Below are positions 52,039-54,524 of a stretch of DNA of 64,000 nt, piece after piece. The notes beneath the pieces are model-generated. The model made no database searches and was not told the origin of the DNA. It saw only the letters and a list, made by a program, of their open reading frames with translations. The position numbers were made by a program, and so were the translations under genes. The stretch comes from Halobaculum gomorrense (GTDB lineage Archaea; Halobacteriota; Halobacteria; Halobacteriales; Haloferacaceae). The stretch is taken from positions 124,001-188,000 of the forward strand of contig NZ_FQWV01000001.1 of assembly GCF_900129775.1 (NCBI RefSeq). The letters run 5' to 3'. Each line of letters begins with the position of its first letter. Position 1 is the stretch's first letter.

Positions 52039-53013
52039 CTACCCTTCGGGCTCGGTCTCGGCGTCGCGGATGGTCGGCACCTCGACGCGGTCGAGTACCG
52101 CCCGGAGCACGTCCGCCTTCGCCACGTCGTCCACCTTGGCGTCCGGCGTGAGCACGAGCCGGTGGGCGAGCACCGGCGTCGCCACGCGCTTCACGTCGTC
52201 GGGGGTGACGTACGCGCGGCCCGCGAGCGTCGCCGCCGCCCGGGCCGCCTCGAAGAGACGCTGGGTGCCACGCGGCGACACACCGACATCGACCCGGCGG
52301 TCCTGCCTGGTGGCACGCGTTACGGCGGCCATGTACTCGAGCAGGTCGTCGTGGACGCGGACGGACTCGGGGGCTTCGCGGGCGCCCATCACGCGCTCCT
52401 CGTCGAGCACCGCCTCGACGCTGGGGTCCTGTTCGACGCGGCCCGCGCGCCGGCGCAGGAGTTCGACCTCGCCGCCGAGATCGGGGTATCCCATGGAGGT
52501 CTTCACGGCGAAGCGGTCGAGTTGCGCCTCGGGGAGGGGGAAGTTGCCGGCCTGCTCGACGGGATTTTGGGTCGCGATGAGAAAGAACGGCTCCGGGAGT
52601 TCGTAGGTCGTCCCGTCGACGGTCACCTGTTCCTCCTCCATCGCCTCCAGCAGCGCCGCCTGCGTCTTCGGCGGCGCGCGGTTGATCTCGTCGGCGAGGA
52701 CGACGTTCGCGAAGATCGGTCCCCCCGAGAACTCGAACTCGCCGGTGCCCTCGTCGTAGACGGTGGTGCCCGTCACGTCCGAGGGGAGCAGGTCGGGGGT
52801 GAACTGCACGCGGGAGAACGACAGGCCGAGCGCCGTCGCCATCGACCGCGCGGTGAGCGTCTTGCCCGTGCCGGGTACGTCCTCGATGAGCACGTGGCCC
52901 CGGGACAGCAGGGCGATGAGGATCTCCTCAAAGAAGGCGTTCTCGGCGACGATGGCGGCGCGGATGGTGTCGAGCACGTCCGTGCAGGCCGCGCTCGCGT
53001 CGGGAACGTCCAT
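52039..53013 (-). CDS. MoxR family AAA+ ATPase
   Basis: 324 aa. Walker A is EDVPGTGKT (about 42), Walker B NVVLADEINRAPPKTQAALLEAMEE, sensor 1 FFLIATQNPVEQAGNFPLPEAQLDRF (in parts), sensor 2 region VGVSPRGTQRLFEAARA and a lid domain with TPDDVKRVATPVLAHRLVLTPDA. MoxR proteins act as chaperones for vWA-type partners, here the DUF58 protein. It is convergent with the partner operon rather than in it, so expression is separately controlled. Confidence 0.93.
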   Translation of the reverse strand: MDVPDASAACTDVLDTIRAAIVAENAFFEEILIALLSRGHVLIEDVPGTGKTLTARSMATALGLSFSRVQFTPDLLPSDVTGTTVYDEGTGEFEFSGGPIFANVVLADEINRAPPKTQAALLEAMEEEQVTVDGTTYELPEPFFLIATQNPVEQAGNFPLPEAQLDRFAVKTSMGYPDLGGEVELLRRRAGRVEQDPSVEAVLDEERVMGAREAPESVRVHDDLLEYMAAVTRATRQDRRVDVGVSPRGTQRLFEAARAAATLAGRAYVTPDDVKRVATPVLAHRLVLTPDAKVDDVAKADVLRAVLDRVEVPTIRDAETEPEG

Positions 53014-53121
53014 GGGGTCTGGGGGCGTTCGACCGGCAAGAAGCCTCGGCTTCGGGGGACAGTGACATACGGTCGATCGAACCGAAACGGTTTACAGGCT
53101 GACCGTCCGATTTGAAGGCGA

Positions 53122-53206
53122 GCCGAGGTAGCCTAGCCTGGCCAAGGCGGCAGATTCGAAATCTGCTGTCCATTCGGACTCGGGAGTTCAAATCTCCCCC
53201 TCGGCG
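53122..53206 (+). tRNA. tRNA-Ser (CGA)
   Basis: 85 bases. The acceptor stem GCCGAGG/CCTCGGC is perfect, with discriminator G at 53206. The anticodon stem GCAGA/TCTGC encloses loop TTCGAAA, anticodon CGA at 53157-53159 (codon UCG). A long variable arm (TGTCCATTCGGACTCG region) marks a class II serine tRNA. The T-loop is GTTCAAATC. CCA is not encoded. No intron is visible. Its 3' end is repeated three times downstream. Confidence 0.93.
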
Positions 53207-53620
53207 CTTCTGGCGGCACACCGAGACGAACGGTGAGCGGAGCGAATCGTGAGGAGCCGTGCCGCCGAACGACTTCCGGGGAGATTTGAGCAGAGAGTGA
53301 AGCGAGCGAACGCGAGCGGAACGATCGTGTTCAAATCTCCCCCTCGGCGTTCTCCGGCGACACCACACCGCGAGCACCCCGTGTGCTCGAAACCGTGTCG
53401 CCGGTGTCGGCTGTGCGGGACGATTTGAACACGGAAGTCGCAGCGTCGAGCGAAGCGAGGCGACCGTCTTCAGGAGTTCAAACTCCTCCTCGGCGCTTTT
53501 CGCGCGAACCACACCGCGAGAGCCCTTCGTGGCTCTCACCCCCGGGAGCGCGAAACAACTTCCGGAGAGATCTGAGCGGGGGTGTGGCGCGATCGAGTTC
53601 AACCCTTCCCGGCGATTCTC
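53207..53620 (+). repeat. tandem array of degenerate tRNA-Ser 3' ends with inverted repeats
   Basis: The tRNA T-arm/acceptor 3' end (from GTTCAAATCTCC to CTCGGCG, 53186-53206) recurs at 53329-53349 (21 of 21 bases), 53476-53495 (a few changes) and 53597-53614 (more changes), at steps of 143, 147 and 121 bases. Between copies are paired arms: GGCGGCAC/GTGCCGCC (53212-53219 with 53259-53266), CCGGCGACAC/GTGTCGCCGG (53354-53363 with 53395-53404) and TTTCGCGC/GCGCGAAA (53498-53505 with 53548-53555). In addition GGGGAGATTTGA (53278-53289) is the reverse complement of 53331-53342. No coding sequence is supported. Confidence 0.8.
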
Positions 53621-54050
53621 GGCCCGTAGGGGCTGTGAAGCTAGCGTTTATAGTGGACCACGGCACCCCGATCCGCGAGCCTCGATCCACGCGATAAACA
53701 ACAGACCGCGATATTGAATCGGATATCTGAAGACACCCCAGAGTTTCGGAGTTTGGATTTTGATGCGTGCCTTATTTTCACGTGGTCTGTGGATGGATCG
53801 TCTTTCGTCCGGCGATTAGGCTGCAGTCGCGGAGTATGTCGCTCAGAAAAGTTTTCTGAGTGATAAAATTACGGAACCGCAAGACAGCTCCTGTTTCACA
53901 GGTCCTTCATATGAACAGAAGGCACACATCAAAGCCATCCTCCGAGGTTGTGGGATCGGCCGCGTCGCGTTCGACGCGTGCCGGTGGCACCGCCGAGCGA
54001 CGGCCGCTCCCGAACGCCCGAACGAATCGGGGAGGCGCCGGCGGCGCGAG
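53621..54050. other. AT-enriched gene-free region with a 19-bp palindrome
   Basis: The base composition drops well below that of the neighbours between about 53640 and 53930. A perfect palindrome CTCAGAAAAGTTTTCTGAG lies at 53842-53860, followed directly by TGATAAAATTA, a TATA-like element. Reading frames here have no coding character. It looks like foreign or remnant DNA next to an integration-prone tRNA gene. Confidence 0.5.
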
Positions 54051-54524
54051 TCAGGCGTCCTCGACGGCCGCCAGCAGCGCCTCGTAGTCGGGTTCGTTCG
54101 TGGGGTCGTCCGCCTCCCAGGCGTACGTGACGACGCCGTCGTCGTCCAGAACGTACACCGCGCGGTTGGCGATGCCGTGCAGTCCGAGCTCGGGGATGTC
54201 GATCGAGAGGCCGTACGCCTCGATCCCCTTGCCCGCCATGTCGCTGACGAGGTCGAACTCGAGGTCGTACTCGTCGGCGAACGCGCCCAGCGAGAACGCC
54301 GAGTCGGCGCTCACGCCGAACAGCGTCGCGCCCGCGGCCGTGAACTCGTCGTGGTGCTGTTGCAGGGCCACCATCTCGTTGGAGCACGGCGGCGTGAACG
54401 CGCCGGGGAAGAACGCGAGCACGACCGGCCCGTCGCCGAGGTGATCGCCGAGGTCGAACGACTCGTGGTCGCTGCCCTTGTACGTCGCGGTGAACGTCGG
54501 TGCTGCGTCGCCTTCGGCTATCAT
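54051..54524 (-). CDS. peroxiredoxin (AhpC/TSA family)
   Basis: 157 aa from ATG 54524. The peroxidatic Cys lies in FFPGAFTPPCSNEM, with the usual Pro/Thr frame (FxPxxFTxxC shifted), and RAVYVLDDDGVVTYAWEADDP carries the C-terminal Arg. No clear resolving Cys is seen, so it is probably a 1-Cys or AhpE-like enzyme. It reduces peroxides with a thiol donor. Cytoplasmic, no signal. The frame extends upstream to 54575, but homology starts at MIAEGDAAPTF. Confidence 0.9.
   Translation of the reverse strand: MIAEGDAAPTFTATYKGSDHESFDLGDHLGDGPVVLAFFPGAFTPPCSNEMVALQQHHDEFTAAGATLFGVSADSAFSLGAFADEYDLEFDLVSDMAGKGIEAYGLSIDIPELGLHGIANRAVYVLDDDGVVTYAWEADDPTNEPDYEALLAAVEDA

Follow-up and report, generated by a model that had tools for sequence, protein, structure and literature searches.

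The tRNA-Ser(CGA) gene of Halobaculum gomorrense is followed by three hairpin units that each end in a copy of the tRNA's own 3ʹ end, and arrays of this kind are real, order-wide and linked to tRNA genes. The arrays have a common anatomy and sharp boundaries, adjoin tRNA genes, differ in copy number between congeners, have empty counterparts at the same genes and carry a conserved, covarying hairpin. We give about even credence to the reading that the feature is an RtT-like array, in which non-coding hairpin cassettes at tRNA 3ʹ ends are gained and lost as units. The main rival is a role for the host as trailer RNA.

When loci are aligned side by side, the order within a unit is as follows: the tRNA tail (D), a hairpin particular to each locus (hp1), a reverse-complement tail copy whose end lies at the complement of T54 (I), a second hairpin (hp2) and a direct tail copy (Dʹ). 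The array at tRNA-Ser(CGA), in coordinates of the 64,000-nt stretch of DNA that we analysed (the window), consists of:

53122-53207, forward strand: tRNA-Ser(CGA) gene (ARAGORN; Rfam RF00005, 57 bits)
53187-53206, forward strand: tail of tRNA-Ser(CGA), T54-N73
53208-53277, forward strand: hp1 of unit 1, a locus-specific hairpin with stem GGCGGCAC...GTGCCGCC
53278-53289, forward strand: I of unit 1, inverted tRNA-tail copy GGGGAGATTTGA (inverted repeats I6 and I8)
53290-53329, forward strand: hp2 of unit 1, class-a hairpin core GCAGAGAG...CGATCGTG (model R1)
53330-53349, forward strand: tail copy 1, 20/20 over T54-N73 and 21/21 with G53
53350-53416, forward strand: hp1 of unit 2, stem CCGGCGACAC...GTGTCGCCGG (inverted repeat I1)
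53417-53429, forward strand: I of unit 2, inverted tail copy GGGACGATTTGAA
53430-53476, forward strand: hp2 of unit 2, class-c core CACGGAAG...CTTCAGGAG
53477-53495, forward strand: tail copy 2, with one substitution and one deletion
53496-53563, forward strand: hp1 of unit 3 (CTTTTCGCGCGAACCAC...)
53564-53575, forward strand: I of unit 3, decayed inverted tail copy GGAGAGATCTGA (sequence reading)
53576-53597, forward strand: remnant of hp2 of unit 3 (sequence reading)
53598-53614, forward strand: tail copy 3, decayed, with several substitutions and a 3-base gap

The first-pass annotation had reported three tail copies at these sites, in steps of 143, 147 and 121. Both the copies and the steps are borne out, with the second step measured at 146–147. 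It did not include the inverted tail copy in each unit, the conserved hairpin core, or the spread through the genome and the order. Tail copy 1 is far above chance, since the best match to the tail in 2000 block shuffles of the same downstream 700 bp was 15/20. Tail copy 2 scores 15/20 ungapped, a value reached in 4 of the 2000 shuffles, and the support for copies 2 and 3 is their position in the array and not identity alone. The class of hp2 in unit 2 is also present at Ser-GGA, Tyr and Phe, and hp1 of unit 3 resembles the tRNA-adjacent unit of one congener (G006) and the second unit of another (G009). The flanking genes encode a MoxR-type AAA ATPase and a peroxiredoxin.

The boundaries of the tail copies are precise. 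At positions 53–73, identity between tail copies and the tRNA is ~0.9–1.0 (66 copies from within the genus, 42 from outside it), values that are inflated because the copies were selected on positions 54–73. Identity rises at 53/54 and drops at 73/74; outside the boundary it is 0.67–0.86 at position 52 and 0.53–0.67 at position 74, and this drop in the flanks is unaffected by the selection. The flank past the discriminator is only slightly more alike after the tRNA and the last copy than it is between loci, so a larger duplicated unit is not the general rule. Next to the universal T-loop part, the inverted copy has bases that are particular to its own tRNA (p ~1e-7 for nucleotides 62–66); a ranking of this specificity over 15 nt is uninformative for many tRNAs, and it is the narrower test that is significant. 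The inverted copy does not consistently track tail copies that have drifted, so pairing between the two is not always kept.

It is the second hairpin that recurs from gene to gene. Different tRNA genes have hp2 in common in 36 pairs at a level of at least 88%, and hp1 in one pair. Three classes of hp2 can be distinguished, namely class a (GCAGGGAG...CGACCGTG), class b (GTAGACG...CGTCTCGGCGTG) and class c (CACGGAAG...CTTCAGGA), and there are also unclassified cores. Tail copies behind the Thr and Arg-TCT genes have an extra T-loop base (GTTCACAATC, GTTCATAATC) in several genera (loci L111, L113, L117, L119, L120, L252 and L254), which suggests long vertical inheritance at these genes; at other loci the extra base sits in the inverted copy instead. 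Behind tRNA-Arg CCT in four congeners (L035, L181, L201 and L241), a tail-like copy, CGTGACTCCCGTCACGCCCG, lies 61–123 bp from the tRNA in a different arrangement, preceded by purine-poor palindromic sequence.

Arrays are common within the host genome. We located 42 tRNA genes in its 3.2 Mb and compared their surroundings. About 20 of the 42 have at least one copy (15–21/21) of their own 3ʹ end 50–480 bp downstream, for an expectation from shuffles of at most ~0.1 per gene. With a cut-off of 15/20 on T54-N73, 1–3 copies are found at 19 of the 42 genes, and the false-positive rate in shuffles is 0.2% per locus. No tail copy was found at 15/20 behind the Ala (CGC, GGC, TGC), Ile and Thr-GGT genes in any congener read; the same genomes have several copies at other tRNA genes.

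The association with tRNA genes holds across the order. A scan of 84,980 genomes with the class-a 17-mer GGATTTGAAGCAGGGAG returned 86 stretches, 80 of which were covered by the analysis of position. All 34 matches that we take to be haloarchaeal (Haloferax, Halorubrum, Halobellus, Natronococcus, Haloterrigena, Halorhabdus and others) follow a tRNA tail and share its orientation: 32 are 30–208 bp behind a tRNA and two are behind a recognisable Thr-type tail. Nearly all have a copy of the tail in question after them. Of the other 46 matches, none is behind a tRNA. A covariance model, R1, built from 31 class-a hairpins matches unit 1 at 53276-53344 (37.6 bits, E=1.6e-7, E-values for this model being rough). 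R1, which detects mainly class a, was run on a 197-genome draw from the phylum: of the 33 genomes that belong to the same order or a nearer group, 28 have matches, and the genomes from outside the order have none. All ten matches in the host genome are behind tRNAs, as are, by coordinates, 37 of 42 in three genomes of other families; the other five comprise two at intron-bearing tRNA-Trp genes, one at tRNA-Pro, one antisense reading of a palindrome and one at a tRNA-Gly fragment. In one genome (G242; L249:811-1490), two tandem tRNA-Asp genes are each followed by an hp2 match, and the tRNA has apparently been duplicated with its array. Copies away from tRNA genes, named beforehand in the first-pass annotation as evidence against its reading, were not found: each unit examined adjoins a tRNA tail. 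We found no description of such arrays in haloarchaea in the open-licence full-text literature; one may exist elsewhere.

Across orthologous loci from up to six congeners and the host genome, the copy number at the same tRNA ranges from 0 to 3, gains and losses being unpolarised. Variation of this kind among relatives had been anticipated, and it extends to precise empty sites. At Gly-GCC, the tRNA of G000 directly joins the flank that in G006 and G009 comes after a whole unit; at Asp, G000 is empty, and in G007 a unit precedes a flank of the same kind. The Arg-TCT array of G006 is that of G009 plus one extra unit adjoining the tRNA, and at Ser-CGA it is G009 that has one tRNA-proximal unit more than G006. 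At Val-CAC in G007, the first and third units are identical at 112 of 115 positions, with a different unit between them. Copies follow the species-specific tails of their own tRNAs at Val-TAC, Phe and Ser-CGA. The cassette is not a strict unit, because hp1 and hp2 recombine with each other; they reassort at Ser-GGA, Tyr and Gly-TCC, and at Gly-TCC the junctions between G006 and G009 fall inside the repeated hp1 loop. Many of the copy-number differences could be deletions between direct repeats. The proposal that copies are pushed outwards as new ones form, so that position records age, fared less well: of the 15 arrays with several copies, eight have an outer copy that is less tRNA-like, five one that is equally so and two one that is more so, which is a weak tendency only. 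The suggestion that a small element inserts copies of itself at the end of the tRNA comes close to our preferred reading, and two of the comparisons above differ by one tRNA-proximal unit.

The units are strongly structured. The array stretch as a whole folds far better than shuffles (z -5.0), and so does the I-hp2-copy hairpin of unit 1 (-36 kcal/mol, z -4.9); the fold of I and hp2 in unit 2, with its decayed tail, is not significant (z -0.5). Covariation in the class-a alignment is 0.226; shuffles give 0.100 (0/500), and slid controls do not exceed 0.10. The outer arms covary as tail copies, and hence it is the inner stem that provides independent evidence; its first variable pair is CG in 17 sequences, UA in seven and GC in six.

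What are these arrays related to? The closest likeness is to the RtT repeats of E. coli. At the tyrV locus (L255), copies of the tRNA-Tyr tail occur at +155, +333 and +511 (19/23) and inverted tail copies at +58, +236 and +414, with a period of 178. The classical RtT/tyrT repeats of E. coli K-12 (L255:1211-1737) thus hold an inverted and a direct tail copy in the haloarchaeal order. The Rfam family RtT (RF00391, rttR) covers the hairpin from the inverted to the direct copy at tyrT/tyrV, with four matches above 130 bits. In both groups the layout is tail, spacer, inverted tail, hairpin, tail: the haloarchaeal repeats, like RtT, lie directly downstream of a tRNA gene, contain an inverted copy of its 3ʹ end and finish with a direct one. 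However, the E. coli repeats were seen at one tRNA type and are near-identical tandem units, whereas haloarchaea have many tRNA genes with arrays, several hp2 classes and mixed units. In addition, the E. coli tail copy begins a few bases later and takes in the CCA, while the haloarchaeal copy starts at T54. RF00391 gave no match at E<=1 in 52900-54200 of the window and none at the gathering score in six related loci, and R1 gave none in the E. coli tyrT/tyrV locus. Since the models fail to cross-match, the haloarchaeal units look RtT-like but are not members by model test.

We propose that a cassette consists of hp1, I, hp2 (in one of its several classes) and the direct tail copy T54-N73, and that cassettes enter and leave as whole units through recombination or copying at the G53/T54 boundary. 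With a break at this position, the tRNA would always keep a working tail, and the older tail would stay downstream with its cassette. A putative enzyme presumably recognises the folded tRNA-sense strand, which could be DNA or else RNA of the tRNA trailer, and new cassettes probably enter beside the tRNA in most cases. No circular form, RNA product or enzyme turned up in the analysis.

A possible, though less probable, explanation is that the hairpins are functional RNAs. They would be transcribed with the tRNA, freed by 3ʹ processing, and act as an RNA or trailer signal, as has been proposed for E. coli RtT; tail copies would be kept since I must pair, and turnover would be the birth and death of a useful, dispensable element. 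Conserved internal-loop sequences, an inner stem that covaries across genera and strong hairpins are consistent with this idea. Furthermore, the class-a alignment has tandem purine mismatches in many inner stems, similar to the tandem GA motif reported, with covariation support, for RtT (PMC7657543, PMC8250186). Both hp1 and hp2 fold better on the tRNA-sense strand than on its complement, in line with this idea, but the bias appears with DNA energies as well as RNA energies, and there is no excess of G-U pairs on the sense strand (141, versus 171 antisense). RNA and single-stranded DNA are therefore indistinguishable by this measure. A host function also sits uneasily with the turnover, since the same gene has 0–3 copies in congeners and about half of the tRNA genes lack units altogether.

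We consider it rather unlikely that the arrays are a by-product of replication, in which template switching and slippage at palindromes near tRNA genes make tail-inverted-tail duplications, which then grow and shrink through recombination between short repeats. The order tail, inverted tail, tail is the one that two template switches would leave; the junctions in the repeated hp1 loop at Gly-TCC, the reshuffled pairs of hp1 and hp2, and the near-identical first and third units at Val-CAC are also of the kind that such a process would produce. However, it does not explain why hp2 classes are common to genera and to tRNA genes and absent elsewhere in the genome, nor why the T54 boundary is fixed at so many genes.

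The mechanism set out above for RtT-like arrays can be taken further, to an integron-like system. An integron array is built from a fixed anchor, attI, and from cassettes that each close with a folded attC hairpin, whose parts are the inverted outer arms, the internal loop, the inner stem and a variable tip. By analogy, a putative recombinase would read the folded I-hp2-tail and insert non-coding cassettes at G53/T54 of many tRNA genes, and E. coli RtT would be the bacterial case; we regard this as a long shot. On paper, the anchor corresponds to the tRNA tail, a folded site ends the cassette, the boundary is G/TT and differences lie near the anchor. The likeness is structural only: the folded site, with its inverted arms, internal loop and inner stem, may resemble attC in shape, and the GTTCAAA of its outer arms differs from the integron GTTRRRY. 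Unlike those of integrons, the haloarchaeal cassettes contain no recognised genes, and none of 79 genomes of the order has an IntI (TIGR02249) above the cut-off. The main text of a survey of archaeal integrons names neither Halobacter* nor tRNA (PMC9668308).

The first-pass annotation favoured attachment-site duplication, in which each copy would mark the place where a tyrosine integrase once inserted a virus or plasmid, the element having since been lost. Here the anatomy largely refutes that reading, and we consider it very improbable. tRNA 3ʹ ends are normal integrase targets (PMC8371274), and as in the arrays the target is the 3ʹ part of the tRNA gene and the tRNA is restored. Indeed, an integrase element does occupy a tRNA gene in a related genome: behind tRNA-Gly(TCC) (L248:275-3510) lies a 2.9-kb element with a PF00589 integrase, a DUF7342 protein and one unknown ORF. 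The repeated part of the tRNA begins in the anticodon arm (CCTTCCAAGCTCATGGCCCGGGTTCAAATC...) and extends ~40 nt, as far as the end of the tRNA; at each end of the element stands a full hairpin unit. From this one element it can be seen how a duplication made by an integrase looks in this order. Because it uses a different attachment site, with whole units repeated beside it, the arrays are not ordinary attachment-site relics. The arrays differ in that they start at T54, contain an inverted tail copy along with a conserved core hairpin, are present behind many tRNAs and have no adjacent integrase; none was found among six neighbouring ORFs tested at the tRNA-Ser(CGA) locus. In IMG/VR, 16 stretches fit the class-a pattern (the one inspected is without a tail copy) and none matched the patterns of classes b and c; the hp2 motifs found nothing in a phage collection, and plasmids gave a tRNA body and one weak match.

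Several other candidates were set aside. REP/BIME-type palindromic repeats are short intergenic hairpins in mosaic units, as are the arrays, but each haloarchaeal hp2 match examined is behind a tRNA tail. A MITE or DNA transposon was rejected because 34/34 motif matches and all examined model matches are at tRNA tails and not at varied sites; inspection of the body ends found no terminal inverted repeat. For the same lack of terminal inverted repeats, and because the body is conserved, a casposon or CRISPR-like target duplication was dropped. For a bulge-helix-bulge substrate of the splicing endonuclease, the relevant passages of a paper on Haloferax substrates report no such trailer (PMC7714728). 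tRNA-primed reverse transcription was also considered; the copies are without CCA.

RtT repeats have so far looked like a curiosity of one locus in E. coli. Their layout now turns up in one haloarchaeon behind about half of its tRNA genes, and it recurs throughout the order; turnover is fast and the hairpin is conserved. What was an anecdote becomes a testable class, for which numerous natural replicates are available, as well as empty sites and sister species, in organisms that are genetically tractable. It is also a warning that short copies of tRNA tails near haloarchaeal tRNA genes are not proof of past integration by a virus or plasmid.
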